DNA of 64,000 nucleotides from Paragemmobacter straminiformis (lineage in GTDB: Bacteria; Pseudomonadota; Alphaproteobacteria; Rhodobacterales; Rhodobacteraceae), in the NCBI RefSeq assembly GCF_014243445.1, contig NZ_JACLQD010000007.1, forward strand, positions 1 to 64,000, read 5' to 3'. The notes under the pieces are model-generated. The model was not told the DNA's origin, made no database searches, and saw only the letters and a program-made list of their open reading frames with translations. Numbering within the stretch: the first letter of the stretch is position 1; the number at the start of each line of letters is the position of its first letter. Shown here piece after piece: positions 1 to 16,346 of this stretch. Position numbers and translations under genes: made by a program.

Positions 1-154
1 TGCAGTGGTACGAGGTGAACAGCGCCGCATCGATGCCGTTCTTGGCCATGACGCCACGGATCGCATCGAGGCGCCGCTGCATCTCGGTGGCCGAGAAGGT
101 CGGGGTGACCGGGGTGCCGTTGCCGACATAGTTCTGCAGTCTTTCGCGTTGCAT
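1..154 (-). CDS. Creatinase-like amidinohydrolase, N-terminal fragment (cut by window edge)
   Basis: Only the first 51 codons are in the window; the gene runs off position 1. The start ATG at 154 is preceded by AAGGA about 8 bases upstream. The visible peptide has the creatinase N-terminal pattern, a TFSATEM block followed by an IDAALFTSYHC block. Pseudomonas creatinase has closely similar TFSAQEY and IDAAIFTSYHN blocks. Creatinase (M24 'pita-bread' fold) hydrolyses creatine to sarcosine and urea; relatives act on other ureido or guanidino compounds. It is the last visible gene of the operon that starts at 8316, separated from the permease gene by 99 bases, so it probably acts on an intermediate of that pathway. 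The catalytic half is not visible, so substrate and activity are open. Confidence 0.7.
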   Translation of the reverse strand, partial: MQRERLQNYVGNGTPVTPTFSATEMQRRLDAIRGVMAKNGIDAALFTSYHC

Positions 155-182
155 GACGGATTCCTTTTCGTGAATTTGCGTC

Positions 183-211
183 ATGGTCGCCGCAGTGGCC
201 GCGTCTGTCAA
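183..211 (-). promoter_or_regulatory. Possible internal promoter before the creatinase-like gene
   Basis: On the minus strand a perfect TTGACA (211-206) is followed after 17 bases by GACCAT (188-183), which matches only three of six bases of a -10 box. It lies in the 99-base gap between the permease stop and the creatinase-like start. It could give extra expression of the last gene, but the -10 is poor and the gene may simply be read from the upstream operon. Confidence 0.22.
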
Positions 212-253
212 AAGACCGTTTTTCACGGGGGGTTGAGAAAAACTAATGGCGCG

Positions 254-1165
254 TCATGGTCCGAACGGCTCGCCCAGCGATGCCACGCCGTTGATCTTGA
301 GCAGCCGCTTGTTCGAGGTGATGATGCCCAGCACGACGATGGTGACGATATAGGGCAGCGCCGAAAGCAGTTGTGACGGCACGGCCCAGTTCTCGGTCTG
401 CGCCACGAGACTGGCCAGAGACACCGCGCCGAAGAGCAACGCGCCAAAGAAGATGCGCCCTGTCATCCATGTGCCGAAGACGACCAGCGCCAGCGCGATC
501 CAGCCGCGCCCCGCGATCATCCCGTCGGCCCAGAGCGGAGTATAGACCGTGGCCGCATAGGCCCCCGCCAGCCCGGCCATCGCCCCGCCGAACACCACCG
601 CGCCAAGGCGCAGCGCGACCACACGGTAGCCGATGGCGCGGGCGGCTTGCGGGTTCTCGCCCACGGCCCGCAGGATCAGGCCGAGGCGGGAATAGCGGAA
701 CATCGCCCAGAGTGCCGCCGTGCCCAGCAGCGACAGCCAGACCACCGCGTCCTGTGCGAAGAGCCCGCCCACGACGGGCAGGTCCGACAGCACCGGCACG
801 GCAAGTTTGGGCAGACCCGTGATCGTCAGGCTTTCGTAGGAATTGCCGATCAGCGACGACAATCCCTGTCCGAGGATGCCGACCGCCAGACCGACCGCCA
901 CCTGATTGGCCCGCAGCCCCAGCGCCAGCCAGCCGAAGACCAGCGACAAAAGGATGCCCGCCACCGCCGCCACGCCAAAGGCCGCGACATGCCCGCCGCC
1001 ATGATAGACCACGATGAAGGCGACGACCGCGCCCAAAGCCATGATCCCTTCGAGACCGAGGTTCAGCACACCGGCGCGTTCGACGACCAGCTCTCCCAAT
1101 GCGGCCAGCAGGAAGGGTGTCGCCGCCGCCAGCATTCCGGCGAGGATGAAGGAAAGCCCGCTCAT
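254..1165 (-). CDS. BMP-type ABC importer, permease 2
   Basis: Inner-membrane permease of 303 residues, almost entirely hydrophobic, of the branched-chain/nucleoside permease family (YufQ/NupQ-like). It carries the typical AGVLNLGLEGIMALGA segment near residues 30-45, where the family keeps a conserved N-L-G-x-E-G loop. The start at 1165 is chosen because its ATG overlaps the stop of the preceding permease in an ATGA junction and the protein then begins at the first membrane helix. It should form the channel with permease 1, driven by the duplicated ATPase and fed by the BMP lipoprotein-family binding protein. Such importers usually carry nucleosides or other purine-like compounds; the actual substrate cannot be read from sequence. 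Confidence 0.88.
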   Translation of the reverse strand: MSGLSFILAGMLAAATPFLLAALGELVVERAGVLNLGLEGIMALGAVVAFIVVYHGGGHVAAFGVAAVAGILLSLVFGWLALGLRANQVAVGLAVGILGQGLSSLIGNSYESLTITGLPKLAVPVLSDLPVVGGLFAQDAVVWLSLLGTAALWAMFRYSRLGLILRAVGENPQAARAIGYRVVALRLGAVVFGGAMAGLAGAYAATVYTPLWADGMIAGRGWIALALVVFGTWMTGRIFFGALLFGAVSLASLVAQTENWAVPSQLLSALPYIVTIVVLGIITSNKRLLKINGVASLGEPFGP

Positions 1166-2238
1166 GCGGCACCTCCTTTGCGGATCGGCCAGACCAGCCG
1201 GAAACGGACGAAGGTGATAGCGGCGAGGTAAAAGACCAGCAGGCTGCCCTGGAACACCCTGACCGCCGCGACCGGCAGATCGGCCGAGACCATCGCGTTG
1301 TCTCCGCCGATGTAAAGTGCCGCCATCAGCAGCGAGGAGGCCACGATGCCGATCGGGTGCAAGCCGCCCAGATAGGCCACGATGATCGCGGCATAGCCGT
1401 ATCCGGTGGAAATGCCGCGCTGCAATTGCCCGATGGGGCCGGCCACTTCGGCCGCGCCGGCAAGCCCTGCGGCGAAACCGCCGATCAGCAGGGACAGCCA
1501 GATGGCGCGGCTTTCCGAGAATCCGGCGTAGGCGGCGGCCTTGGGGGCAAGCCCGCCGACAAGGAACTGATACCCGCCGAAACTGCGCTGCATATAGGCC
1601 CAAGCCAGAACCGCCGACAAAAGCGCCAGCAGAAGCGACAGGTTGACCCGCGTTCCGGGCAGCAGGATCGGGATCATGGCGTCATACTGGAACATCACCG
1701 ATTGCGGGAAATTGAACCCCTGCGGGTCTTTCCACGGGCCGAGCAGCAGGTAATTCAGCACCTGCGCCGCGATCAGCGACATCATCAGCGTGACGAGGAT
1801 TTCGTTGGCATTCAGCCGCACCCGCCAAAAGGCCGGAACCACCGCCCAGAGCGCGCCGCCAAGCGCCCCCATCACCAGCATGGCGGGCCAGATCCAGCCG
1901 CCCGTCGCCTGCGGGAAATAGACCGGAATGGCCGATGCGAAGATGGCGCCAAGGATGAACTGCCCCTCGGCCCCGATGTTGAACACCTTGGCGCGGAAGC
2001 CGATGGCCAAGCCCTGCGCGATCAGCAAAAGCGGCCCTGTCTTGAGCAGCACTTCGGAAAAGGAGGACCAGCCGAGGAACGGTTCGAGAAGCAGCGCGTA
2101 GAACACGGCGGCGGGGTCTTTGCCCATTGCCAGAAACAGCACGAGGTTGACAAGGATCGCCGCCGCCAGCGCCAGCAGCGGGGCCAGAACCGCCATGCGA
2201 AGCGAGGCACGGTCGCGCCGGATCAGGCGCGGGATCAT
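1162..2238 (-). CDS. BMP-type ABC importer, permease 1
   Basis: Inner-membrane permease of 358 residues (YufP/NupP-like). After a short basic N-terminus (RLIRRDR) come many membrane segments, with the family loop FNIGAEGQFILGA around residues 88-100. It starts at ATG 2238, which overlaps the stop of the ATPase gene (ATGA), and its own stop overlaps the next permease start, so all three are translationally coupled. It is the partner of the 303-residue permease in the heteromeric channel. The length is normal for the larger of the two permeases in this transporter family. Confidence 0.88.
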   Translation of the reverse strand: MIPRLIRRDRASLRMAVLAPLLALAAAILVNLVLFLAMGKDPAAVFYALLLEPFLGWSSFSEVLLKTGPLLLIAQGLAIGFRAKVFNIGAEGQFILGAIFASAIPVYFPQATGGWIWPAMLVMGALGGALWAVVPAFWRVRLNANEILVTLMMSLIAAQVLNYLLLGPWKDPQGFNFPQSVMFQYDAMIPILLPGTRVNLSLLLALLSAVLAWAYMQRSFGGYQFLVGGLAPKAAAYAGFSESRAIWLSLLIGGFAAGLAGAAEVAGPIGQLQRGISTGYGYAAIIVAYLGGLHPIGIVASSLLMAALYIGGDNAMVSADLPVAAVRVFQGSLLVFYLAAITFVRFRLVWPIRKGGAA

Positions 2239-3749
2239 GCCGCCACCCCGGCGGCGCCGATCATCCAGCGGCCGATCTCTTCGGCCCGGGTGTTGCGCGC
2301 GTCGAGCGAGGGGGACAGATGTCCCTTGTGGATCACCTGGATCCGGTCACAGATTTCGAACAATTCTTCCAGTTCCTCGGAAATCACCAGCACGGCCACC
2401 CCTTCGTTGCGCATCTGGACCAGCCTTTGCCGGATCGCCGTCGCCGCCCCGATATCGACGCCCCAGGTCGGCTGCGCCACGAACAAAACCTTGGGGCGCA
2501 GCGAAATCTCGCGGCCCATGATGAATTTTTGCAGGTTGCCGCCCGAGAGCGCCCCCGCTTCGGCATCCGGACCCGAGGTGCGCACGTCAAAGTCGCGGAT
2601 GCAGGCGGCGGTGAATTCGGCCTCGCGCCGCCGGTCGATGAAGCCGCGCTTCAGCAGGCCCAGCGGATGGGCGGTCAGCAGGCTGTTGTCGGCCAGCGTC
2701 ATTTCCGGCACGGCCCCGCGCCCGAGGCGTTCTTCGGGAACAAAGGCAAAGCCAAGCGCGCGGCGGGCGGCCGGGTCAAGATGGGCGACGCCTTGGCCCA
2801 TAAGCCGCACCTCGTCGCAGCGCGCCGCCGAAAGCCGCGTCTCGCCCGAGAGCAGCTTGGCAAGTTCGGCCTGACCGTTGCCGGAAATACCCGCAATTCC
2901 AAGGATTTCGCCCGCATGCAGCCGCAAGCTCACGGCAGACAGGCCCACGGCGAAGGGATCGTCGGGCGCATGGTCAAGTGCGGCGAGTTCCAGCCGCACC
3001 TCGCCCACGGGGTGGGGTTCGGCCTGCATCGGCGGCGGCATGTCGCGCCCGATCATCATGCGCGCCAGATCATGCGCATCATGCGCGCGCGGGTCGACAC
3101 GCCCCGTCACGCGGCCCCCGCGCAGGATGGTGGCGCAGTCGCAAAGCGCCTGGATCTCGTCAAGCTTGTGCGAGATGAACAGGATCGACACCCCGCGGTC
3201 GCGCAGACGGCGCAGCGTGTCGAACAGCAGCCCCACGGCCTGCGGCGGCAGGACCGAGGTCGGCTCGTCCAGGATCAGCAGCTTCGGTTCGGTCATCAGG
3301 CAGCGGATGATTTCCACCCTTTGCCGCTCGCCCACCGACAGCGAATGGACATGGGCGAAAGGGTCGACGTCCAGCCCGAAATCCTGACCCAGTTCGCGGA
3401 TGCGGGCGGCCAGCGCGGCCTTGGGCCCCGCAACGATCAGCGCGATGTTTTCAACCACCGTCAGCGTTTCGAACAGCGAGAAATGCTGGAACACCATGCC
3501 GATGCCCAAGCGCCGCGCCTCGGCGGGCGAGGTAAGCTGCACAGGGTTTCCCTGCCAGACCACCTCGCCCGCGTCGGGTGTTTCGACGCCGTAGATCAGC
3601 TTCATCAGCGTGGATTTGCCCGCGCCGTTCTCGCCCAGTATCGCGTGGATGGAATTCTGGCCCACGGTCAGGTCGATGGCATCATTGGCCACGACCTGCC
3701 CGTAGGCCTTGGTCATTCCCCGCAGGGTCAAAAGCGGCGCGGGTTCCAT
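2235..3749 (-). CDS. BMP-type ABC importer, duplicated ATP-binding subunit
   Basis: Cytoplasmic ATPase of 504 residues with two ABC domains, as in RbsA, MglA and YufO. The first half has an intact Walker A (GENGAGKST, residues 39-47), a signature LSVGERQRV and a Walker B LLILDEPTS. The second half has a degenerate Walker A (GISGNGQAE) and a modified Walker B (VAQPTWGVD) with a signature LSGGNLQKF, the normal asymmetry for this family: one site hydrolyses, the other is structural. The start at 3749 puts it two bases after the BMP protein stop; longer readings upstream lie inside that gene and were rejected. It energises the two permeases encoded directly downstream. Confidence 0.9.
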   Translation of the reverse strand: MEPAPLLTLRGMTKAYGQVVANDAIDLTVGQNSIHAILGENGAGKSTLMKLIYGVETPDAGEVVWQGNPVQLTSPAEARRLGIGMVFQHFSLFETLTVVENIALIVAGPKAALAARIRELGQDFGLDVDPFAHVHSLSVGERQRVEIIRCLMTEPKLLILDEPTSVLPPQAVGLLFDTLRRLRDRGVSILFISHKLDEIQALCDCATILRGGRVTGRVDPRAHDAHDLARMMIGRDMPPPMQAEPHPVGEVRLELAALDHAPDDPFAVGLSAVSLRLHAGEILGIAGISGNGQAELAKLLSGETRLSAARCDEVRLMGQGVAHLDPAARRALGFAFVPEERLGRGAVPEMTLADNSLLTAHPLGLLKRGFIDRRREAEFTAACIRDFDVRTSGPDAEAGALSGGNLQKFIMGREISLRPKVLFVAQPTWGVDIGAATAIRQRLVQMRNEGVAVLVISEELEELFEICDRIQVIHKGHLSPSLDARNTRAEEIGRWMIGAAGVAA

Positions 3750-3751
3750 CT

Positions 3752-4837
3752 TTACTGCGGCAGCGGCGTTGCGACGCCCTTCACATGCCAGTCCATCGCG
3801 ACGATCTCCTCGTCGGTCATGCCGACCCCTGCCGCCACGCCTTCGCTGCCATCGGCCTTGGTGATCGGGCCGGTGAAGGGGTTGAAGCTGCCGTCGGCGA
3901 TCTTGGCTTCGGTCTCGACGATCTTGGCCTTGAGATCGGCGGGGATGTCGCCGCTCCAGTCCACGACCTCGACCACCTTGTCGGCCACGCCGAGGAAGGC
4001 GTTGGCACCGGCAAAGGTCCCGGCGATATGCGCGTCGATCGAGGCCTTGAAGAACGGGCCCCAATCCGTCGCCACGCAGCCCAGATAGGTCTTGGGCGCA
4101 TAGGATTTCATCGAGGAGTTGAGGTTGAAGGCATAGACGCCCGCTTCCTCGCAGACGGCGATGACCGAAGGCGTGTCCTGCGCGTTCGAGAAGATCACGT
4201 CGCAGCCCTGCGAGATCAGCGCCTTGGCGGCTTCCTGTTCCTTGGCGGGGTCGAACCAGGTGTTCACCCAGACGACCGACACTTCGACATCGGGGTTCAC
4301 CGACTGCGCGCCCAGCGTGAAGGCGTTGATCGAGGTGATCAGTTCGGGGATCGCAAAGGCCGAGACCGAGCCGAGCTTGCCGGATTTCGACAGTGCGGCG
4401 GCGGCCATGCCCATCAGATAGGTGCCCTGGAAATACTTGGCCGCGAAGGGCGAGAAGTTCGGGGCAACCATGTAGCCCGACGCGTGCAGCACCGTCACCG
4501 ACGGGTCGCGCTTGGCGATCTGCATCGCGCCGTTCTGGTAGCCGAAGGAGCCTGCGATCAGCACCTTGTTCCCGTCGGCCACGGCCTTGGTCATGATGCG
4601 GTCGGCATCGGGGCCTTCGGCGATGTTTTCCAGAAGGGTGATCTTCACCGCATCGCCATAGGCGGCGATCACAGGGTCAAGCCCTGCGACAAGCGTATGC
4701 GACCAGCCCACATCGCCATTGGGCGAGGGCAGCACCAGCGCGATGCCCAGCGGGTCGGCCGCACTGGCCCCGCGCGCGCCGATGGCGCTGGCGATGGCGG
4801 CGAAGGCGGTGGTCTGTAGGAAGGCGCGTCTTTGCAT
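3752..4837 (-). CDS. BMP-family substrate-binding protein of the ABC importer
   Basis: Periplasmic binding protein of 361 residues of the basic membrane protein (BMP/Med/PnrA) family, which binds purine nucleosides or related ligands in the studied members. The N-terminus MQRRAFLQTTAF with a following hydrophobic stretch and ASA-AD end looks like a twin-arginine (Tat) signal with cleavage near residue 27. Family features include the GYQNGAMQIA segment and the FSNAQDTPSVIAVCEEAGVY stretch of the ligand cleft. It lies between the amidohydrolase (23-base gap) and the ATPase, so it delivers the substrate of the whole operon. A Tat signal would be unusual among BMP proteins, many of which are lipoproteins. 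Confidence 0.88.
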   Translation of the reverse strand: MQRRAFLQTTAFAAIASAIGARGASAADPLGIALVLPSPNGDVGWSHTLVAGLDPVIAAYGDAVKITLLENIAEGPDADRIMTKAVADGNKVLIAGSFGYQNGAMQIAKRDPSVTVLHASGYMVAPNFSPFAAKYFQGTYLMGMAAAALSKSGKLGSVSAFAIPELITSINAFTLGAQSVNPDVEVSVVWVNTWFDPAKEQEAAKALISQGCDVIFSNAQDTPSVIAVCEEAGVYAFNLNSSMKSYAPKTYLGCVATDWGPFFKASIDAHIAGTFAGANAFLGVADKVVEVVDWSGDIPADLKAKIVETEAKIADGSFNPFTGPITKADGSEGVAAGVGMTDEEIVAMDWHVKGVATPLPQ

Positions 4838-4860
4838 GGGTTTGTCTCCTGTTGGTTTCT

Positions 4861-6219
4861 TTATGCGTCTATCGTGGCAAGGGCGGCTTCCGCCTCATGG
4901 GCCATTTCGGCCTCGTCGAGGCCGGGGAATTCCCCCTTGGCCCAGACGATGCGCCCGTTGACCATCGTCAGGTCGGTCGGCATGCCGATGCCCACCTTGG
5001 CGATCAGGCTTGCGGGGTCGTGGCGGGTGCCGACGTAATCCATCCGCCGCGTGTCGATGGCGAACAGGTCGGCGGCCATGCCGGGGGCAAGGCGGCCGAT
5101 ATCGCTGCGGCCAAGCAGTGCGGCCCCCCCCGTCGTGGCATAGGCCAGAAAATCGCCCGGCTCCGGCACCGGATGCGCGCGGGTTCCCGCGACAAGGCAT
5201 TGCAGCATATAGGCCGAATGGATGCAGTGCATCAGGTTCGAATTGTCGTTCGACGCCGCCCCGTCGCAGCCAAGCCCGATCCGCAGCCCATGCGCGGCCA
5301 TCGCGGGAATGTCGGTCACCTCGGCCCCCACCAGATAGACGGGTTCGGGGCAATGCGCGACGCCCGTGCCGCTGGCCGCCGTCTGGCGCAATTCGGCATC
5401 GGTCAGTTCCCAGCAATGGGCATAGAACGTATCGGGGCCGGCAAAGCCGATCTGTTCCAGATAATCCACCGTCCGCATCCCGTGGCGCGCGCGGATCACC
5501 TCGGCCTCGCCCTCGCCGACATGGCTGTGCAGGAACACGCGCTTGTCGCGGGCAAGGGCGACCGATTCCACGAACGTCTCGCGGTAGCAGTTCACCGGCT
5601 GGCAGGGGGAAACCACGACCTGCCGCATGCTGAACGGCCCTGCGTCGTGATAGCGGTCGATCAGGCGGGCGCAGTCGGCGATGAATTCGTCGGTGGATTC
5701 CAGCATCGCATCGGGGATGGTCGAGCCTTCGGATTTCGGCAGCGTGTTGCCGCCGCGCCCTGCGTGAAAGCGCAAGCCGATCTTGGCCGCCGCTTCGAAC
5801 TGGCGGTCGACGATGCGTTTTCCGGCGTGGCGGGGAAAGTTGTATTGGTGGTCAAAGGCCGTGGTGCAGCCGTGCTTTGCCAGCTCGGCCATTGCCGTCA
5901 GGGACGAGTGGTAGAAACAGTCCTCGGTCAGGCGCGAGAAGATCGGGTAGATCAGGTCGAGCCATTGGATCACCGACAGCTTGGTCCAGTCGAGGTCGGC
6001 GCGGTTGCGCACGAAGGTCTGGAAAAAGTGGTGATGCGTGTTCACAAGGCCGGGGTAAAGGAACCAGCCGCGCGCGTCGATCACCTCGGCCCCCTCTGCG
6101 TCCAGCCCTTTGCCGATGGCGCGGATGGCGGGGCCTTTGACCAGCAGGTCGACATCGCGCAGCACGGTGGCGGGGTCGGCCACCACCGCCGCGCACCCTT
6201 TGAACAGATAGCCGCTCAT
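4861..6219 (-). CDS. Metal-dependent amidohydrolase (8-oxoguanine deaminase / chlorohydrolase-like)
   Basis: Cytoplasmic hydrolase of 452 residues of the AtzA/TrzA/SsnA subtype of the amidohydrolase superfamily. Metal and catalytic motifs are visible: PGLVNTHHHFFQT (HxH), FLHSHVGEGE, the YAHC block and LGCDGAASND. Members deaminate or dechlorinate N-heterocyclic rings; the closest named group I recognise is 8-oxoguanine deaminase and related hydroxytriazine hydrolases. The ATG at 6219 overlaps the GST stop in an ATGA junction; longer readings upstream run through the GST gene and were rejected. Within this operon it would act on a ring nitrogen or amidine of the imported compound, before or after oxidation by the Rieske system. 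Exact substrate unknown. Confidence 0.85.
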   Translation of the reverse strand: MSGYLFKGCAAVVADPATVLRDVDLLVKGPAIRAIGKGLDAEGAEVIDARGWFLYPGLVNTHHHFFQTFVRNRADLDWTKLSVIQWLDLIYPIFSRLTEDCFYHSSLTAMAELAKHGCTTAFDHQYNFPRHAGKRIVDRQFEAAAKIGLRFHAGRGGNTLPKSEGSTIPDAMLESTDEFIADCARLIDRYHDAGPFSMRQVVVSPCQPVNCYRETFVESVALARDKRVFLHSHVGEGEAEVIRARHGMRTVDYLEQIGFAGPDTFYAHCWELTDAELRQTAASGTGVAHCPEPVYLVGAEVTDIPAMAAHGLRIGLGCDGAASNDNSNLMHCIHSAYMLQCLVAGTRAHPVPEPGDFLAYATTGGAALLGRSDIGRLAPGMAADLFAIDTRRMDYVGTRHDPASLIAKVGIGMPTDLTMVNGRIVWAKGEFPGLDEAEMAHEAEAALATIDA

Positions 6220-6869
6220 GCCTGAACTCCAGCGGGTTCGGGTTTCAGGTCGTGCAAGCGGTGGATGCCGGGCATTTCGACGAATCCGGGCAGGGCGCGG
6301 ATGGCGCGTGTCCAAAGCCGGATCGCGGGATATGCATCGACGCTGATCCCGCCATCGGGGGCCAGCATGGAATGCGGGAAACAGGCGATATCGGCCAGCG
6401 TGGGGCGGTTCCCCGCAAGGAAGGCGTCGCCCATCAGATGCCGTTCGACCAAGGCCGCCTCGATCTCGCGCAGGCATTGCACCCCTGCCTTGCGGCAAGC
6501 CACGATATCGGCGGGCTTTTGCAGCATGTCATGGGTGCGGGCCTTGCCGATGCTGGCCGACAGCCGTTGCGCAAAGGCCAGCCACAGCGCCACCCGCGCC
6601 CGCATTTCGGGCGTGTCATCGCCCAGCCATGCGGGGCCGGACCGCGCCGCCACGTAAGTTAGGATCGCCGCCGAATCCGTCAGCGTCAGGCTGGCGTCCT
6701 GCATCACGGGAATCGTGCCTGCGGGATTGATGGCCAGAAAGGCGGGGCTGCGATGCTCGCCGCCGGGGTGGAAATCGACGGCCCGCAAGGTCAGCTTCGC
6801 GCCCGTCAGCGCGGCCAGAAGCCGGATCTTGTAGCAATCGGGGCTTAGGACGTAGTCGTAAAGGATCAT
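6216..6869 (-). CDS. Glutathione S-transferase-like protein of the oxygenase operon
   Basis: Protein of 217 residues with the two-domain GST layout: a thioredoxin-like half (residues 1-80, with LSPDCYKIRLLAALTG at the N-terminal active-site helix and the cis-proline segment GTIPVMQD) and a helical half with the RPTLADIACFP motif. It is coupled by ATGA overlaps to the catalytic oxygenase subunit upstream and the amidohydrolase downstream. In the Pseudomonas putida CBB5 caffeine pathway the GST-like NdmE is a required structural partner of NdmC/NdmD. The same gene neighbourhood here suggests a scaffold role rather than detoxification. That functional parallel is inference; an ordinary GST activity, for example in opening a conjugated intermediate, remains possible. 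Confidence 0.82.
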   Translation of the reverse strand: MILYDYVLSPDCYKIRLLAALTGAKLTLRAVDFHPGGEHRSPAFLAINPAGTIPVMQDASLTLTDSAAILTYVAARSGPAWLGDDTPEMRARVALWLAFAQRLSASIGKARTHDMLQKPADIVACRKAGVQCLREIEAALVERHLMGDAFLAGNRPTLADIACFPHSMLAPDGGISVDAYPAIRLWTRAIRALPGFVEMPGIHRLHDLKPEPAGVQA

Positions 6870-7702
6870 GCCGCCACCAGTTGCGCGCCGTAGGTATAGC
6901 CCCGCCGTTTCAGCCAGCGCCGATAGGCGACCGAGGTCAGGTCCGCCCGCGTCGGAATCTCGAGCCCCGGATCGAGCGGAAGGCGGTGGGGAAGCTGGTT
7001 TTCAAGGATCGAGCGGTCTTGCAGGAAGATCGTCTGCTGGAAATGGATCAGGTCGGTCATCGGCGTGTCGTCGTCGAACAGCGCCATCCAGGGCCATACC
7101 TCGCACAGCTCCTCGTCCAAGGGCTGCACGAACAGGGTGATGACATCCCATTCCCCCGGACGCGGCGGGCAGGTCTTGTACAGGATCGAAACCGTGGGGG
7201 CAGGGACGCGATACATGTATTCGGTGGTGATCCCGCCCGCCGCCGATTTCGCGGCTTGCGGCTGGTAGAAATGCACCTTGGTCGCCCAGACCTCGTCCAC
7301 CTCCTCGCGGATCGCCACATCATAGCGGCCGACCTCGGTATGCGGCTCGGCCCCCAGAATATCGGTGTGGACAAAGGGGAAATGCGCGATGTCGAGAAAG
7401 TTCTCGACCGCGCGCAGCGGCGAACATTTCACCCGCACAAGACCGACATCGACAAGGCGCCTGCCCGGCTGATCGGCTTCGGGAATGTCGAACAGCGGGC
7501 GCTGCGGCGTGCCGGGGCAGGCCCAGACATGACCGTAGCGTTGCTGCGACGGAAGGCTGCGCCCCCCGCTTGTGACGGTGATCGCCCCCCCGTGCCATGC
7601 CACGCGGACAGGTTCGCCCAAAAGCCTTGTGTCGCGGCCTTCCGGCCCAAGCTGGCTGACCAGCGCAACGGGATACCATTCGTCGCGGATCGGGTCGGTC
7701 AT
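6866..7702 (-). CDS. Rieske-type oxygenase catalytic subunit lacking its Rieske domain (NdmC-like)
   Basis: 278 residues of the vanillate-demethylase/NdmA-like oxygenase family. The mononuclear iron site is intact: D104-IA-H107-FPFV-H112 supplies the bridging Asp and two His, and QDRSILENQ (D229) supplies the carboxylate ligand. The usual N-terminal CxH...CxxH cluster motif is absent; the first 60 residues begin like a Rieske oxygenase but go straight to the post-Rieske segment YGHVWACPG. The missing domain is encoded separately by the gene immediately upstream, whose stop overlaps this start at 7702 (ATGA). Longer readings into that gene are shadows. The likely reaction is O2-dependent N-demethylation or hydroxylation. 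No reductase gene is in the visible operon, so electrons must come from elsewhere. Confidence 0.8.
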   Translation of the reverse strand: MTDPIRDEWYPVALVSQLGPEGRDTRLLGEPVRVAWHGGAITVTSGGRSLPSQQRYGHVWACPGTPQRPLFDIPEADQPGRRLVDVGLVRVKCSPLRAVENFLDIAHFPFVHTDILGAEPHTEVGRYDVAIREEVDEVWATKVHFYQPQAAKSAAGGITTEYMYRVPAPTVSILYKTCPPRPGEWDVITLFVQPLDEELCEVWPWMALFDDDTPMTDLIHFQQTIFLQDRSILENQLPHRLPLDPGLEIPTRADLTSVAYRRWLKRRGYTYGAQLVAA

Positions 7703-8316
7703 GCCAAAGCCTCCTCGGCCTGACGGCGCAGCGTTTCCACCCCGCGCGAGGCATCGACAAGGGCGGCAGGCGTGGCCGCGCCATCGGCCAGAACATGCAG
7801 GACGCAGCGGTTTTCGGGCAAAGGCTGCACCAGAACGGCCACCGCGACCCCGGCCAAGGTGCCGCGCCACGCGCCGCCGCTTTCGGCCAATCCCGCCGCC
7901 GCAGGATCGAAGGGCGCATCGAGCGTGACGGAGCGCAGCGGCACAAGACCCGCCAGCGCGGGCGGCAGTGCCGCCGGTTCGGCCAAGGCTACCCAGATCA
8001 CGCCCCCCGATTCCATCGCCCGATGCACCGGCACGCGGATCGCTTCGGGAGGTTCGAGGTCGGGGTGGGCCGGAATGCGCTGGCACTGGCCCGATTGGGC
8101 ATAGCTCCAGCCGTGATAGATGCAGGACAGGGCCTCGCCCCGTACGAACCCGTGCGACAGGCGCATGCCGCGATGCGGGCAGCGGTCGGCCCAGGCCGCG
8201 ATCCGGCCCGAGGCGCTGCGCCAAAGCGCAAGCTCTGCCCCGTCTACGACGACGGGCATCACGACCAGGGGCGCAAGGTCGCGGGACAGTGCGACAGGGG
8301 TCCAGTAGGGCAGCAT
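7699..8316 (-). CDS. Stand-alone Rieske [2Fe-2S] protein, electron donor of the split oxygenase
   Basis: 205 residues with a complete Rieske site, C46-P-H48-RG and C65-IY-H68-GW, followed by the proline-rich loop seen after Rieske domains in vanillate-demethylase-type oxygenases. The C-terminal third (about 110-205) has no catalytic iron motif and I cannot assign it. The start ATG at 8316 has a GGAAAG-like ribosome site and is the first gene of the operon. It is coupled by ATGA to the Rieske-less catalytic subunit, so together they rebuild one oxygenase from two chains. In NdmC/NdmD the Rieske domain is also separate from the catalytic chain, but there it is fused to the reductase; here it is alone. 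Confidence 0.82.
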   Translation of the reverse strand: MLPYWTPVALSRDLAPLVVMPVVVDGAELALWRSASGRIAAWADRCPHRGMRLSHGFVRGEALSCIYHGWSYAQSGQCQRIPAHPDLEPPEAIRVPVHRAMESGGVIWVALAEPAALPPALAGLVPLRSVTLDAPFDPAAAGLAESGGAWRGTLAGVAVAVLVQPLPENRCVLHVLADGAATPAALVDASRGVETLRRQAEEALA

Positions 8317-8380
8317 GGTGACTTTCCGGCAGGGATGCCTTTGTTGGCTAGGACGCTAGAACCCGATCCCGCCGCTTGTC

Positions 8381-8407
8381 TTGCCACGGCAATTTCCGGA
8401 CAGGAAA
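8381..8407. promoter_or_regulatory. Adjacent palindromes upstream of the oxygenase operon
   Basis: Two abutting inverted repeats lie 65-91 bases upstream of the first gene of the minus-strand operon: TTGCC-AC-GGCAA (8381-8392) and TTTCC-GGACA-GGAAA (8393-8407). Their position fits an operator or activator site controlling the catabolic operon. No regulator gene is inside the visible part of the operon, so the cognate protein is unknown. Confidence 0.35.
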
Positions 8408-8494
8408 GCCCACAGGAATCGGGCGCTCTGCCCAAATCCTAGTCACCGCTGCACCAAAAGACAGCGTTTTGTGAAGCGGCGCGAAGCGGAAAAA

Positions 8495-8746
8495 TCAGGC
8501 ACTCCCGCACCGGTTGAGGGGGAGGCGTTCGATGGTTTCCACCCAAGCCTCGATCGGGCCGAGCGAGACACCCATTTCCATCGCGTCGATCAGATCGGCC
8601 GGGCCTTCGACCAGCATTTCCACGCAAAGGGCATCGCTGCGCTGCGTCTCTCCGCGCAGGCCAAGCCGCAGCAAATGCCGCGCAACCCAAGGCAGAAAGG
8701 TCGCCGCCGCCAGATCGCCCCGAATGATGAACCGTTCGACCGGCAT
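8495..8746 (-). CDS. Acylphosphatase-like small protein, catalytic residues not conserved
   Basis: 83 residues with the ferredoxin-like acylphosphatase pattern: an N-terminal strand, a helix (PWVARHLLRLGLRG) and a C-terminal GPIEAWVETIER strand. In active acylphosphatases an FR pair supplies the catalytic Arg and a WVxN segment supplies the Asn. Here the corresponding places read TFLPW and GETQRSD, so hydrolytic activity is doubtful. It lies 24 bases after the truncated haemoglobin gene in the same direction and is probably co-transcribed. Function unknown; a small binding or structural role is possible. Confidence 0.55.
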   Translation of the reverse strand: MPVERFIIRGDLAAATFLPWVARHLLRLGLRGETQRSDALCVEMLVEGPADLIDAMEMGVSLGPIEAWVETIERLPLNRCGSA

Positions 8747-8770
8747 GTTCCCCCTTGCCCGACCGACAGG

Positions 8771-9154
8771 TCAGTCGCGGTTCACCAGCATCCGCGCCGC
8801 GCGGTCGAAGGCAAGCCCGATCTTCTCGCGCGCCGGGCCGTGGATGCCGACATCATCCAGCGCGCGGGCCATGCAGGCCAGCCAGTCCTCGGCATCTTGC
8901 AGGTGGATCGGCACATGGGCGTGGATCTCGCGCAGGTTCATGTGGCCGTGGCGTTCGGCGTAATAGCGTCGCCCGCCGAAAAAGCCGCTGAGGAATTCGA
9001 ACTGCTCGACCCGCACATGCGAAAGCCCGTGGCCCTGAAAATGCAGGTCAAGGATGCGCGCGCCTTCGGGGGCGGTTTCGATGATGTCGTAAAACCGTTC
9101 CACCAGCGCACGCACAACCGGCTCTCCGCCGATGTCATCGACCACGCTTGCCAT
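8771..9154 (-). CDS. Truncated haemoglobin (group II-like globin)
   Basis: 127 residues, normal for a 2-on-2 globin. The segment FYDIIETAPEGARILDLHF matches the start of group II truncated haemoglobins (helices B to E), and HMNLREIHAHVPIH around residues 70-83 fits the F-helix region with the proximal His. The C-terminal part has the conserved Trp (DAEDWLACM). Such globins bind O2 or NO and act in the cytoplasm in nitrosative or oxygen-related protection. It is probably co-transcribed with the acylphosphatase-like gene downstream. Confidence 0.82.
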   Translation of the reverse strand: MASVVDDIGGEPVVRALVERFYDIIETAPEGARILDLHFQGHGLSHVRVEQFEFLSGFFGGRRYYAERHGHMNLREIHAHVPIHLQDAEDWLACMARALDDVGIHGPAREKIGLAFDRAARMLVNRD

Positions 9155-9245
9155 GGGGGCCTCCGTTTTCCGGCCCCATCAGGCGCGCATCGGCGGCCCG
9201 CCGCAAGGCCGCATCCGGCCTTGGGCCTGCCGTTTCCGACCTGCG

Positions 9246-9938
9246 TCAAACGGGCGCGCAGGCGCGCAGGAAAAGCCGGGTCGTGCGGCGGATATCGGCG
9301 GTCAGCACATCGACATCGGGCAGGCAGCCGCCGCAAAAGCGCCGCTCTATCGCGGTGAAGCCCAACCACAGCGCCAGAAGGTCGCGCGCGGCGCGGTCGG
9401 GATCATCAAGGGTGATTTCGCCCTTGCGCCCGGCCTCGGCGATCAGCTCGGCCAGCAATTCGCGCACATGGCCGGGACCGGCATCAAAGAACCGCCGCCC
9501 CAGGGTCGGATTGCGCTGCGCTTCAAGGCTGAGCGCCTTGTCCAGCGCCAGATGGCACGGCTGGGTCATCACCTGCACCAGCACGGTGCCGAAATTGACC
9601 AACCGCTCTTCCAGCGATGTCGCCGTGGTCATGGTATGGGCGAGTTCGCGGTTCAGCCGCTCTGTCTCGCGCTGGACGATGGCTTCGAAGATCTTCGCCT
9701 TGTCGCCGAAATGGGCATAGACCGTCACCTTGGACACGCCCGATTGGGCGGCGATGGCTTCGATCGGTGCGCCGTCGACCCCGCGCTGCGCGAAAAGCGC
9801 CTGCGCCGCGTCGAGGATGGCCTCGCGCTTCTCAAGGTCTTTCGGTCTGCCGGGCGCCCTTTGGACCATATCCTCACCGCAGCCGCCGACGGGCGGGTCG
9901 CGCAAGGGTAAGGCTTCACCTTCACCGAAACAAGCCAT
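9246..9938 (-). CDS. TetR/AcrR-family transcriptional regulator
   Basis: 230 residues from ATG 9938, which has a very strong ribosome site (GGAGGTGATGC then ATG). An internal ATG at 9869, where the usual TetR N-terminus begins (MVQRAPGRPKD), has AGGA only one base away and is less likely, so the protein carries an extra 23-residue N-terminal tail. The HTH lies at about residues 37-85 (AILDAAQALFAQRG, then IAAQSGVSKVTVYAHFGDK). The C-terminal half is of the AcrR C-terminal type with a cysteine pair in RRFCGGCLPD that might sense ligands. Its target is unknown; a TetR-like palindrome lies at 10773-10788. Confidence 0.85.
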   Translation of the reverse strand: MACFGEGEALPLRDPPVGGCGEDMVQRAPGRPKDLEKREAILDAAQALFAQRGVDGAPIEAIAAQSGVSKVTVYAHFGDKAKIFEAIVQRETERLNRELAHTMTTATSLEERLVNFGTVLVQVMTQPCHLALDKALSLEAQRNPTLGRRFFDAGPGHVRELLAELIAEAGRKGEITLDDPDRAARDLLALWLGFTAIERRFCGGCLPDVDVLTADIRRTTRLFLRACAPV

Positions 9939-12455: not shown

Positions 12456-13187
12456 TCAGGCCCCGATGAAATCGCGCACAAAGGCGCTGGCCGGGCGGGC
12501 GCGTATGTCCGAGGGCTTGCCGATCTGTTCGATCCGCCCCCCCGTCACCGACCCCGACATGACGACGACCAGATCGGCCAGTTCCATCGCCTCGTCCTGG
12601 TCATGGGTCACAAAGACCGTGGTCAGCCCCGTCTCGTCATGGATGTCGCGCAAGCCCTGGCGCAATTCCTTGCGCACCTTGGCGTCCAGCGCGCCGAAGG
12701 GTTCGTCGAGCAGCAGCATCCGCGGCTCGATCGCCAGCGCGCGGGCCAGTGCCACCCGCTGCCGCTGCCCGCCGGAAAGCTGGCTCGGGTATCGGCTGCC
12801 GATATCGGGAAGCTGGATCAACTCGAGCAGCTTGGTCACGCGCCGCGCGATTTCGGCCTTGGGCGGGCGGCTGGCGCGGGGGCGGGCGTTCAGACCGTAG
12901 GCGATGTTCTCGAACACCGTCATATGCCGGAACAGCGCGTAGGACTGGAACACAAAGCCCGCCCGCCGTTCCTGCACCGTCAGGCCCGTCGCATCCTGCC
13001 CGTCGAACAGCACGCGCCCCGAGGTCGGGAATTCCAGCCCGCCCAGAATGCGCAGCAAGGTGGTCTTTCCCGACCCCGAAGGACCAAGCAGCGCCACCAG
13101 CGCCCCCGAGGGGATTGCCAGCGACACCGGCGTCAGCGCCGCCGTGGTGCCGAACTGCTTGGAGATTTCGTCGATTTCGATATGCAT
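12456..13187 (-). CDS. cysA: Sulfate/thiosulfate ABC importer ATPase, short form
   Basis: 243 residues with Walker [10 protein letters not shown] (about 34-42), Q-loop [16 protein letters not shown], signature [15 protein letters not shown] and Walker [13 protein letters not shown]. Context with two CysT/CysW-type permeases and a sulfate-binding protein identifies it. Most CysA proteins are about 350 residues with a C-terminal TOBE-like regulatory domain; this one ends soon after the nucleotide-binding domain, so that domain is missing. The gene ends at a normal stop, with no sign of a frameshift extending it. It energises sulfate uptake at the inner membrane. Confidence 0.88.
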
Positions 13188-13202
13188 GTCAGGTCTCCGG
13201 CA

Positions 13203-14066
13203 TCAATGGCGGTGGGTGGCGGCAAGCGCGTCGGCATGGCGGATTTCCAGCGCGGTCTTGAGCATCAGCGTCACAAGGGCGAGCAGCGTCAGGACGGCGG
13301 CCATCGAAAAGGCCGCGACCGAAAGATATTCGTTGTAGAGCATCTCGATGGTGATCGGCATGGTCGCGGTCTGGCCGCGGATCTTGCCCGACACCACCGC
13401 GACCGCGCCGAATTCTCCCATCGCGCGGGCGTTGCACAGCAGCACGCCATAAAGCAGCGCCCAGCGGATGTTCGGCAGGGTCACGGTCCAGAAGGTGCGC
13501 CAGCCCGAAGCGCCAAGGGTAAGTGCGGCTTCTTCCTCGGCCCGTCCCTGTTCGATCATCACGGGAATCAATTCGCGCGCGACAAAGGGGAAGGTCACGA
13601 ACATCGTGGCCAGCACGATGCCCGGCAGGGCAAAGACGATGGGATAGCCGCTTGCCACCAGCCAGCCGCCGACAAGGCTGTTGGTGCCGAACATCAACAC
13701 GATGCACAGCCCCGCCACCACCGGAGAGACCGAGAAGGGCAGGTCGATCAGCGTGATGAGGAACGCTTTGCCGCGAAAGTCGAACTTGGTGATGAACCAT
13801 GCGGCGGCAATGCCGAAGGCGGCGTTCAGCGGCACCGAAACGCCCGCGATCAGCAGCGTCAGCTTGATGGCCGATGCCGCATCGTGGTTGCCAAGGCTGG
13901 CCACGGCGGCAAGCCATCCTTGTGCCAAGGCCTCCACGAACACCGCGATCAGCGGGGCTGCGACCAGCACACCCAGCCCCAGCACGGCAACCGCGATCAG
14001 CGCGTAACGCGCCAGCGGCGTCTCTTCGCGCGCCGAGCGGAATTTGGTCAGGCTTGCGTCAGACAT
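13203..14066 (-). CDS. cysW: Sulfate ABC importer permease CysW
   Basis: 287 residues, six membrane helices, with the EAA-type coupling loop in AEEEAALTLGASGWRTFWTVTLPNI around residues 178-202. The order sbp-cysT-cysW-cysA is the classical one. Its start overlaps the end of cysT by eight bases, so the two permeases are made together. It forms the channel for sulfate or thiosulfate with CysT. Confidence 0.9.
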   Translation of the reverse strand: MSDASLTKFRSAREETPLARYALIAVAVLGLGVLVAAPLIAVFVEALAQGWLAAVASLGNHDAASAIKLTLLIAGVSVPLNAAFGIAAAWFITKFDFRGKAFLITLIDLPFSVSPVVAGLCIVLMFGTNSLVGGWLVASGYPIVFALPGIVLATMFVTFPFVARELIPVMIEQGRAEEEAALTLGASGWRTFWTVTLPNIRWALLYGVLLCNARAMGEFGAVAVVSGKIRGQTATMPITIEMLYNEYLSVAAFSMAAVLTLLALVTLMLKTALEIRHADALAATHRH

Positions 14067-14895
14067 AACCGATTCTCCTGCGGCTCCAGACCTGGATGAG
14101 GTTGATGACCAGAAGCATCCCGAAGCTGATCAGCAGCATGGCGATCCCGATGGCGGCGGCGGCGTCGTAGTTGAACTCTTCAAGCTGGATCACGATCAGC
14201 AGGGGGGCGATCTCGGTCTTGAGGGGGATGTTGCCGGCGATGAAGATCACCGAGCCGTATTCCCCGACCGCCCGCGCCAAGGACAGGGCAAAGCCCGTCA
14301 GGGCGGCAGGGGCCAGCATCGGCAGCACCACGCGGCGCAGCGTGTAGATGCGGCTGGCTCCCAGCGTGGCCGAGGCTTCCTCGACCTCGGCCTCGATCTC
14401 TTCGACCACGGGTTGCACGGTGCGCGTGACAAAGGGCAGGCCCACGAACACCAGCGCGACAAAGATGCCCCATTGGGTATAGGCGATTTTCCAGCCGATC
14501 TCTGCCGCCAGCGACCCCAGCGCCCCGTTCGGCGCGTAAAGCGCCGTCAGCGCGATGCCCGCCACGGCGGTCGGCAGCGCAAAGGGCAGGTCCACGGCGG
14601 CGTCAAGCAGCCTGCGCCCTGCAAAACGGTAGCGCACCAGAACCCAGGCAAGGATCATGCCGAAGACCAGATTGAACAGCGCCGCGAACAGCGACAGCCG
14701 GAATGACAGGAACAGCGCCGCCCAGACGCGTTCGCGGTTCACGGTGTCCCATATGCCTGAAATGCCGAAATTGGCGCCCTTCCAGAGAAGGGCGCCGATG
14801 GGCAAAAGCACGACGAGGGAGAGCATCGTGAGGGTCACCCCCATACTCAGCCCAAGGCCGGGCATGGGGGATCGGTGGATAAGCGGTTTGCCCAT
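14059..14895 (-). CDS. cysT: Sulfate ABC importer permease CysT (CysU)
   Basis: 278 residues, six membrane helices, with the coupling loop EEIEAEVEEASATLGASRIYTLRRVVLPM around residues 168-196. It has the typical early segment VNRERVWAALFLSFRLSL. The stop lies within the first codons of cysW; the start is nine bases after the sbp stop. Partner of CysW in the sulfate channel. Confidence 0.9.
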   Translation of the reverse strand: MGKPLIHRSPMPGLGLSMGVTLTMLSLVVLLPIGALLWKGANFGISGIWDTVNRERVWAALFLSFRLSLFAALFNLVFGMILAWVLVRYRFAGRRLLDAAVDLPFALPTAVAGIALTALYAPNGALGSLAAEIGWKIAYTQWGIFVALVFVGLPFVTRTVQPVVEEIEAEVEEASATLGASRIYTLRRVVLPMLAPAALTGFALSLARAVGEYGSVIFIAGNIPLKTEIAPLLIVIQLEEFNYDAAAAIGIAMLLISFGMLLVINLIQVWSRRRIGYV

Positions 14896-14904
14896 CGTGT
14901 TCCC

Positions 14905-16020
14905 TTATTTCGCGACGTAGATCTGGTCGAAGATGCCGCCGTCGCCGAAGTGTTCGGGCTGCACCTTGGCCCAACCGCCGAACGAGGCGATATCGACAAG
15001 GTCAAGCTTCGGGAAGCGGGCCACATCTTCGGGGTTCGCGGCCGAACCGTCCCAGGCGCGGTAGAAGTTCTTGAAGGCGATGGCCTGACCTTCGGGCGAG
15101 TAAAGGTAGTTCAGATAGGCTTCGGCCAGTTTGCGCTGCCCGTCGGACTTGATGTTGCCCTCGACAAGCGCCACCGGCGGTTCCGCAAGGACCGACACGC
15201 TCGGCACCACGATGTCGAACTGGTCGTCGCCAAGCTCTTTCAGCGCCAGATAGGCCTCGTTCTCCCAAGCCAGCAGCACGTCACCGATGCCGCGCTGGGC
15301 AAAGGTGGTGGTCGAACCGCGCGCGCCAGAGTCGAGAACCGGAACATGCGCGAACAGCTTGCCGACGAATTCCTTGGGGTCCTGGCCGTTCTTTTCGGCC
15401 CAGGCCCATGCGGCCAGATAGTTCCAGCGCGCGCCGCCGCTGGTCTTGGGGTTCGGGGTGATGACTTCGACGCCGTCATTCACCAGATCGCCCCAGTCCT
15501 TGATGCCCTTGGGGTTCCCCTCGCGGACGAGGAACACGATGGTCGAGGTGTAGGGCGACGAGTTGTGCGGCAGTTTCGACTGCCAGTCGGCGGGCAGCTT
15601 GCCCTCTTTCGCGATCTTGTCGATGTCGGCGGCAAGGGCCAGCGTCACGACCTGCGCTTCCAGACCGTCGATCACCGCGCGGGCCTGCGCGCCCGATCCG
15701 CCGTGGCTGTTTTCGATGGTGGGGGCCTCGTTGCCCTGTGCCACCCAATAGGCGCTGAAGGCTTCGTTGAATTCGCGGTAAAGTTCGCGCGTCGGGTCAT
15801 AGCTGACGTTCAGCAACGACTCGGCGCGGGCCTCGGGGGCGGCTCCCAGACCGACCAGCGCAATCGCCAGCGCCGAGAGAGCGCCCTTGACGAAGCGCGG
15901 CAGCGGCCAGCCTGTCAGGCGGCGAACGCCGGTTTCGATGGTCACACGGCCGTCGAGATGGTCTTCGACCTTGATCCCTTGCGCCGTGGTCTGGCCCGAC
16001 AGGGTGATGGTGGTCAGCAT
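14905..16020 (-). CDS. sbp: Sulfate-binding protein with an unusual N-terminal extension
   Basis: Periplasmic receptor of the Sbp/CysP family. Its mature part begins at about residue 68 with the family start [15 protein letters not shown] and includes [14 protein letters not shown], the anion-binding region. A hydrophobic signal segment ([21 protein letters not shown]) lies at about 46-66, preceded by about 45 extra residues rich in polar residues ([20 protein letters not shown]...). The ATG at 16020 has an AGGAG site. The frame is also open to an ATG at 16116 with a GGGAGG site that overlaps the previous stop (ATGA), which would add 32 residues. Either way the signal is unusually far from the N-terminus. 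It heads the cysT-cysW-cysA genes. Confidence 0.82.
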
Positions 16021-16112
16021 GTCTTTCTCCTGAAACTCGCCTTGCCCGGCGGCAAGGGAAAAGCGGTGGATAAAGGGCGCGAGCCCCAGAATGGTGGTGG
16101 GGTGGTGCAGGC

Positions 16113-16346
16113 TCATGTCCTGCCTCCCGTTTCGATGGCGTCGATGCGGGCTTCCCAGATCCCGGGATCGCGCCCGGCCAGCAGCTCGGCCACGGCAAGG
16201 TCGGGCTGGCGGGTAAAGATCACCAGCGGCGTGCCATTGACGCGATGCGCGGCACCCGTGCGCTTGTCGATCAGATGGACAGCACAGGCAGGCGCATGTC
16301 CGGCGGCCCGTGATGGGGCGGCAGAGCGTGGAACAAGTGCGTTCAT
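16113..16346 (-). CDS. Small protein at the head of the sulfate operon, unknown
   Basis: 77 residues from ATG 16346 with a good AGGAG site eight bases upstream. The C-terminal two thirds ([19 protein letters not shown], then [21 protein letters not shown]) look like a compact folded domain and have protein-like codon use. I do not recognise the family. Its stop overlaps the upstream alternative start of sbp in an ATGA junction, so it is translated with the sulfate transporter and may be a sulfur-starvation protein. No signal peptide or metal motif. Confidence 0.6.

Follow-up and report, generated by a model that had tools for sequence, protein, structure and literature searches.

Two described systems come close to the operon analyzed here, which occupies the minus strand at one end of a 64,000-nucleotide stretch of Paragemmobacter straminiformis DNA (contig NZ_JACLQD010000007.1; hereafter, the window). 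The first is NdmCDE, the 7-methylxanthine N7-demethylase of Pseudomonas putida CBB5. According to the report on this enzyme, NdmC acts on a ring nitrogen and is devoid of a Rieske cluster, NdmD bears an extra one, and the glutathione S-transferase (GST)-like protein NdmE is needed for solubility and activity; the function of homologues, mostly from Sinorhizobium and Mesorhizobium, is given as unknown (PMC4408171). The second is a group of N2,N2-dimethylguanine hydrolases (NdmH) reported in 2026 from Pleomorphomonas, Haliea, and a Rhodobacteraceae bacterium, for which hydrolysis of N2,N2-dimethylguanine to xanthine is described with the enzymes poNdmH, hsNdmH, and rbNdmH (PMC13054789).

The window operon combines relatives of both systems with an importer. 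Eight complete genes run from position 8316 down to 254 and encode a free Rieske protein (oxN), an NdmC-like oxygenase subunit (oxC), a GST-like protein, an amidohydrolase, and the four components of an ATP-binding cassette (ABC) importer of the BMP family. We propose, with a probability of roughly 60%, that this operon imports methylated guanines, likely released by RNA decay, and converts them to xanthine. The component kinds are known, whereas their combination, the free Rieske subunit, and a companion gene for an apparently inactive acylphosphatase are new as far as the open literature shows. The first-pass annotation had likewise known of no described pathway with exactly this gene set, and none was found in the open literature, outside which most subscription journals lie.

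The amidohydrolase, the oxygenase, and the importer

The amidohydrolase gene (4861-6219) encodes a protein of the NdmH/AtzB type. The active-site residues named for poNdmH comprise the CQNN set (C213, Q214, N217, and N165), the substrate-flanking W85, W93, Y98, Y133, and P300, and the catalytic Q74, E243, H275, and D326 (PMC13054789). All 13 of these diagnostic residues are present in the window protein at a constant offset of 7, as C206, Q207, N210, and N158, as W78, W86, Y91, Y126, and P293, and as Q67, E236, H268, and D319, respectively. The same residues were found in 88 of 90 aligned rows representing the window and its relatives (loci of oxC-bearing relatives carry labels of the form L110); the remaining two rows are pieces of one NdmH gene that is broken into two frames in L110 (11477-12879). 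The amidohydrolase of Rhizobium johnstonii 3841 (RL_RS29085) likewise has all 13. As a control, we used a 481-amino-acid amidohydrolase of the atrazine plasmid pADP-1, which we take to be the hydroxyatrazine hydrolase AtzB (its record says only amidohydrolase). This protein is 59.6% identical to the window amidohydrolase and equal to it at nine of the 13 positions, but its four CQNN positions read S,S,I,I, and neither an oxygenase nor a BMP importer is encoded within 4 kb of it on the plasmid. S,S,I,I are the residues stated for AtzB at the four CQNN positions by the NdmH authors, who argue that AtzB descends from an NdmH (PMC13054789). The likeness of the window protein to the published NdmH thus consists of the 13 active-site residues and membership in the AtzB group; the published enzymes, however, are single enzymes, described in a paper whose main text contains neither "Rieske" nor "ABC transporter", whereas the window NdmH stands in a nine-gene set (PMC13054789).

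The resemblance to 8-oxoguanine deaminase suggested by the first-pass annotation needs revision. The nearest NCBIfam model is indeed that of 8-oxoguanine deaminase (NF006055), but it scored 378.1 bits against a curated cut-off of 532, and this score together with the NdmH residues led us to reject a canonical 8-oxoguanine deaminase. Two further deaminases are encoded in the genome, one for 8-oxoguanine (684.6 bits) and one for guanine (500.2 bits); the former has a single residue of the CQNN set and the latter none. So ordinary guanine and 8-oxoguanine would be served outside the operon. Judged by its residues, the window amidohydrolase is a predicted NdmH, the hydrolysis having been published for its homologues.

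The oxygenase appears to be divided among three genes. The oxN product (7699-8316; 205 amino acids; PF00355, 1.7e-20) keeps the CxH and CxxH ligands of a Rieske [2Fe-2S] cluster and is too small to accommodate a catalytic iron domain. Conversely, the catalytic non-heme-iron subunit OxC (6866-7702; 278 amino acids; PF19112, 9.9e-19) has no Rieske ligands and retains the His/His/Asp iron site, of which H107, H112, and D229 were invariant in 43 sequences. In a motif check of 123 rows, the Rieske motif occurred solely in six full-length oxygenases added for comparison, and the two-histidine iron motif was present in every Rieske-less row except L032. The Pseudomonas plasmid cluster L160 provided a reference, since its NdmB matched the solved NdmB structure (PDB 6icl) at 785 bits and is encoded beside NdmC-, NdmD-, and NdmE-type proteins. 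OxC was 45% identical to the L160 NdmC over 274 amino acids, the GST-like protein (6216-6869; GST_N/GST_C) was 40% identical to NdmE over 205 amino acids, and OxN was 40% identical to the N-terminus of NdmD over 121 amino acids. The likeness to NdmC and NdmE noted in the first-pass annotation is corroborated by these values. With another NdmD-like protein, OxN shared 33% identity over 207 amino acids, in an alignment that extends past the Rieske domain. The structural model of OxC (predicted local distance difference test score, pLDDT, 86) found its best matches in GxtA and SxtT (TMq 0.80-0.88 over ~330 alignment columns, gaps included), in keeping with a Rieske domain that lost its cluster.

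The arrangement resembles that described for NdmCDE in having a Rieske-less catalytic subunit, a GST-like partner encoded alongside, and a Rieske domain contributed by another protein (PMC4408171). It differs in that the Rieske domain of NdmD is fused to a reductase, whereas the window operon has the free OxN without a reductase gene and is preceded by a gene for an acylphosphatase-fold protein. We assign OxN, OxC, and the GST-like protein to a predicted NdmCDE-like oxygenase with a free Rieske subunit.

Phylogenetic trees agree on the kinship of OxC with NdmC. In a first tree of 63 rows, the Rieske-less proteins including NdmC formed one clade (57 rows, support 100/99), which split into nine rows with NdmC and the Sinorhizobium type (89/83) and 48 rows with the window OxC (96/82). 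A second tree of 59 rows was built by a quick method with 16 later rows added, a core subset kept, and L032 omitted. It retained the Rieske-less clade (53 rows, support 99), but set the Sinorhizobium type apart and placed the Pseudomonas-type NdmC rows next to the window clade (85). The NdmC rows grouped alone in both trees (100/99 and 100), with OxC outside them, although their nearest relatives differed between the trees and several branches were long. OxC is therefore close kin of NdmC, with an exact branching that varies by tree. A clean separation of free and fused Rieske forms into two clades, seen in the first tree, was weakened by the second, in which L189, L193, and L194 have free Rieske proteins. 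Outside the Rieske-less clade in both trees stood a full-length Rieske oxygenase of a Leptolyngbya (cyanobacterium) plasmid, which is encoded after a complete BMP importer (L123, 1021-6675).

The importer is complete and comprises a BMP-family periplasmic binding protein (3752-4837; PF02608, 2.8e-38), a tandem ABC ATPase (2235-3749; two PF00005 stretches), and two permeases (1162-2238 and 254-1165; PF02653, 2.2e-35 and 7.1e-32). The first-pass annotation had named a split oxygenase, a GST, a ring amidohydrolase, and a complete BMP importer, and a Pfam match stands behind each of the eight genes.

Conservation of the operon and its upstream companion

Five of the seven junctions between the eight genes are 4-base overlaps (oxN/oxC, oxC/GST, GST/amidohydrolase, ATPase/permease 1, and permease 1/permease 2), and the other two are gaps of 23 bases (amidohydrolase/BMP protein) and 2 bases (BMP protein/ATPase). 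Scanning a species-genome collection with OxC yielded 458 relatives, and the analysis covered the 80 best of these. The first-pass annotation had suggested checking operon conservation, and the eight genes were indeed found in the same order and on the same strand in 75 of the 80, which is more than chance. The relatives with the operon belong to the Rhodobacterales and Rhizobiales. The oxN, oxC, and GST genes were present in all 80 loci, the amidohydrolase gene in 77, and the whole importer in 76; three of the five incomplete loci (L035, L037, and L112) stop at contig ends. In samples that include the window's genome, oxC was found in 24 of 390 genomes of the order (E <=1e-20) and in 8 of 385 of the class (E <=1e-30). 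With the amidohydrolase alone as the query, 5 of 398 genomes sampled from the phylum were positive; leaving aside the window's own, the other four all belong to one family and carry all eight genes and the acylphosphatase-like gene.

The operon runs toward the end of its contig, the window starting at base 1 of contig C14 of the genome, and the last thing encoded there is a 61-codon N-terminal fragment of an M24/creatinase-like protein (2-184, minus strand) that is cut by the contig end. The fragment had no Pfam or NCBIfam hit; in a comparison with one of the genome's own M24 proteins, 22 of 40 residues agreed. A tblastn search of 103 loci with the fragment and this one M24 protein (E <=1e-3; a distant M24 could escape it) revealed no M24 gene in the relatives' operons. 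Its only matches, in L081 and L133, lie more than 4 kb from the operon on the opposite strand, and in L034 and L036, two near relatives, the reading frames that follow the operon include no creatinase-like gene. The creatinase is thus not supported as a pathway member, and creatinine and methylurea, which the first-pass annotation had listed as possible substrates, lose their main support. Its description of nine closely spaced genes on one strand stands for the eight complete ones and fails for the creatinase-like fragment. The ninth conserved gene is instead the acylphosphatase-like gene at 8495-8746, which the first-pass annotation did not include.

This gene encodes an 83-amino-acid protein on the same strand as oxN, 178 bases upstream of it, and was present in 78 of the 80 relatives. 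The acylphosphatase model PF00708 matched 33 of 49 of the relatives' proteins at E <=0.01, and the window protein scored 19.5 bits against a gathering cut-off of 22.5. Its structural model (pLDDT 92.9) retrieved from the PDB ten top matches (TMq 0.73-0.85) that are acylphosphatases or so described, bar one named by gene alone. In 85 of 101 sequences, L, V, or I replaces the catalytic Arg of acylphosphatases, and the catalytic Asn is altered in the consensus. The protein is therefore predicted to have an acylphosphatase fold that has lost the catalytic residues.

In a count of 114 loci sorted by sequence motifs (window included; L065 and L124, seemingly the same contig, both counted), the acylphosphatase-like gene accompanied 101 of 104 loci with a free Rieske protein and none of the nine with a fused NdmD-like protein, one locus having neither form; no oxN was seen in L119, which starts close to where its record ends. 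Among loci added later, the gene was found in only one of seven with a free Rieske protein (L187, but not L188, L189, L190, L193, L194, or L195) and in none of five with a fused Rieske-reductase (L191 and L196-L199). The idea that it constantly accompanies the free Rieske subunit was weakened by the later loci; the gene is a feature of the core group plus some neighbours rather than of every free-Rieske system. Our guess is that its product is a structural or assembly subunit.

The 178 bases that separate oxN from the acylphosphatase-like gene (8317-8494) may hold a promoter. The gap upstream of oxN has a median of 162 bases in 86 loci, its bases being weakly conserved; no sigma-70 promoter match was found in window positions 1-9300, and for 1-9600 Rfam offered no credible match to known RNA elements, a single hit (E 0.53) falling far short of its cut-off. 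Farther upstream on the minus strand, a small protein that looks by eye like a truncated haemoglobin (8771-9154) is encoded, with 24 bases between its end and the acylphosphatase-like gene. It is itself preceded by a TetR-like regulator, also assigned by eye (9246-9938). Beyond the operon region, an ATPase, two permeases, and a binding protein (12456-16116, minus strand) resemble by eye a sulfate importer.

Purine genes around relatives of oxC

Deaminases acting on aminopurines recur near relatives of oxC. Guanine deaminases scored over the curated cut-off in L134 and L162 and just under it in L136 and L139; L139 also has an 8-oxoguanine deaminase and L146 an adenosine deaminase, both over their curated cut-offs. 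By similarity, guanine-type deaminases occur in L138, L140, L192/L193, and L194, and an 8-oxoguanine type in L199. The OxC of L134 is 67% identical to that of the window, yet the deaminase there is a guanine deaminase. In some relatives, then, a guanine, 8-oxoguanine, or adenosine deaminase takes the place of NdmH. Xanthine dehydrogenase-like genes were found near L115, L162, L193, and L197-L199. The genome's own xanthine dehydrogenase lies near a second BMP importer (C8:1188000-1206000, L176), which is probably its general purine importer.

Several of these loci vary the theme. Each of L139-L142 has one free Rieske protein, GST, acylphosphatase-like gene, and BMP importer with two copies of oxC, and L139 and L140 also encode three different amidohydrolases, a GMC oxidoreductase, and a fused xanthine dehydrogenase-like protein. 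Among NdmC-like clusters with guanine deaminase, L162 has its Rieske domain fused to a reductase, and L193 and L194 have a free one; L162 and L192/L193 have BMP importers and xanthine dehydrogenase-like genes too. The Paracoccus alcaliphilus plasmid locus L118 has oxN, oxC, GST, BMP importer, and acylphosphatase-like genes in common with the window, but its OxC is 46% identical to that of the window, it carries a VanB-type reductase, and in place of NdmH it has an enzyme annotated as 8-oxoguanine deaminase. A VanB-type reductase was also found in the same gene run in L145 and close by in L137, while the 80 near relatives yielded one weak match at a locus edge (L040).

The proposed pathway and its rivals

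In the proposed pathway, the BMP-type importer would bring in a methylated guanine base. NdmH would hydrolyse N2,N2-dimethylguanine at its exocyclic amine, and probably treat other methylguanines likewise, releasing dimethylamine or another amine and leaving xanthine or a methylxanthine. In the oxygenase, OxC would provide the iron site and OxN the Rieske cluster as a free subunit, the GST-like protein possibly holding both together, as proposed for NdmE. This enzyme, with a reductase presumably supplied from outside the operon, would remove a ring methyl group as formaldehyde. Since the oxygenase should handle what NdmH cannot, and is homologous to NdmC, the group removed would be a ring N-methyl, most simply at N7. 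The resulting xanthine would pass to the genome's xanthine dehydrogenase; the order of the steps given here is tentative. Import, demethylation, and deamination of an N-methylated heterocycle, as put forward in the first-pass annotation, thus remain a coherent reading of the operon.

A number of observations weigh against this scheme. NdmH alone converts N2,N2-dimethylguanine to xanthine, so the oxygenase must serve another methyl group, and the N7 assignment rests on the 45% homology to NdmC. NdmH is missing from L088, which kept the oxygenase and importer, and L071 has oxN, oxC, and GST alone, without amidohydrolase and importer. No deaminase was seen in the stretch read in L115-L117, L119, L137, L143, L144, L159-L161, L187-L191, and L195-L198. 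On the ligand side, the nearest NCBIfam models for the importer, general ABC ATPases aside, are those of the putative vitamin B6 BMP importer (NF047927-30), all of which stayed far below their cut-offs (88.5/400, 434/670, 158.7/465, and 168.5/400 bits). Neither a formaldehyde nor a reductase gene was seen in the window operon. The sole VanB-type hit in the genome (E <=1e-15; C9:845793-846731) has neighbours that look by eye like a dimethylamine-oxidation cluster, and for this reason we did not assign it to the oxygenase as a dedicated reductase.

The least improbable alternative, though still unlikely, is that the oxygenase hydroxylates purines without molybdenum, as HpxD does, acting on C8 of guanine or xanthine, with the amidohydrolase deaminating the product toward urate. 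HpxD of the HpxD/HpxE xanthine hydroxylase is a purine-acting Rieske oxygenase of the wider family that is distantly related to OxC (29%), HpxD-like genes occur near oxC in L134, L137, and L143, and an 8-oxoguanine deaminase accompanies oxC in L139 (over cut-off) and L118 (annotated). However, OxC is 45% identical to NdmC and belongs to the same Rieske-less clade, whereas HpxD falls outside it and unites its own Rieske cluster with the iron site on a single chain, unlike the split OxN/OxC pair, and the HpxD locus L120 has neither a GST nor a BMP importer beside it. Guanine deaminase, 8-oxoguanine deaminase, and xanthine dehydrogenase are moreover already encoded elsewhere in the genome, and the residues of the window amidohydrolase are those of NdmH rather than of 8-oxoguanine deaminase. 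Degradation of methylxanthines of the caffeine family, with the amidohydrolase on a side branch, seems similarly unlikely. The likeness to NdmC/NdmE favours it, as do the plasmid loci L159 (from a species named for caffeine breakdown) and L160, which carry related genes. Yet neither a methylxanthine nor a methylurate, both given as examples in the first-pass annotation, has an exocyclic amine for NdmH, whereas a methylguanine has one. The operon also lacks the NdmA/NdmB-type protein and nucleobase symporter of L160, and aminopurine deaminases occur in several relatives.

We regard as improbable that the oxygenase takes mono- or dimethylguanine as its substrate and strips the exocyclic N2-methyl groups, hydrolase and oxygenase acting in parallel on the same pool. 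The guanine deaminase of L134, paired with a 67%-identical OxC, would complete such a route, but for dimethylguanine it would be redundant with NdmH, and NdmC is described as working on a ring nitrogen (PMC4408171). It is hard to credit that the operon acts not on a nucleobase but on some other natural or synthetic heterocycle resembling guanidine, such as a triazine. The 59.6% identity to the pADP-1 protein would fit this, and the nearest solved oxygenases, SxtT and GxtA, act on a guanidine-bearing tricycle; against it stand CQNN in place of S,S,I,I and the purine deaminases near oxC in several relatives.

Within the methylguanine pathway, a narrower version can be formulated. The bases 7-methylguanine, N2,N2-dimethylguanine, and N2,N2,7-trimethylguanine are natural and all derive from RNA, the last being the cap base of eukaryotic small nuclear RNAs. 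The substrate might be N2,N2,7-trimethylguanine, with NdmH taking the dimethylamino group and the oxygenase the N7 methyl, and the oxygenase might at the same time represent a new free-Rieske assembly with an inactivated acylphosphatase subunit in the core group. We consider this joint proposal very unlikely, and the absence of the acylphosphatase-like gene from six of the seven later free-Rieske loci made it less probable. If true, it would make Rhizobia and Rhodobacterales scavengers of eukaryotic RNA caps.

The conserved operon would give NdmH a genomic home, a context that its discoverers describe as under study (PMC13054789). The importer and N-demethylase offer a testable setting for NdmH and for the origin of AtzB, an intensively studied example of how enzymes evolve on a synthetic compound, the weedkiller atrazine: which methylguanine is used, in what order the steps proceed, and in which bacteria. 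The oxygenase would show one more way in which a Rieske system can be split over several subunits, accompanied in the core group by a conserved but inactive acylphosphatase fold. For soil and plant-associated bacteria, the operon suggests a way to recycle modified RNA bases.

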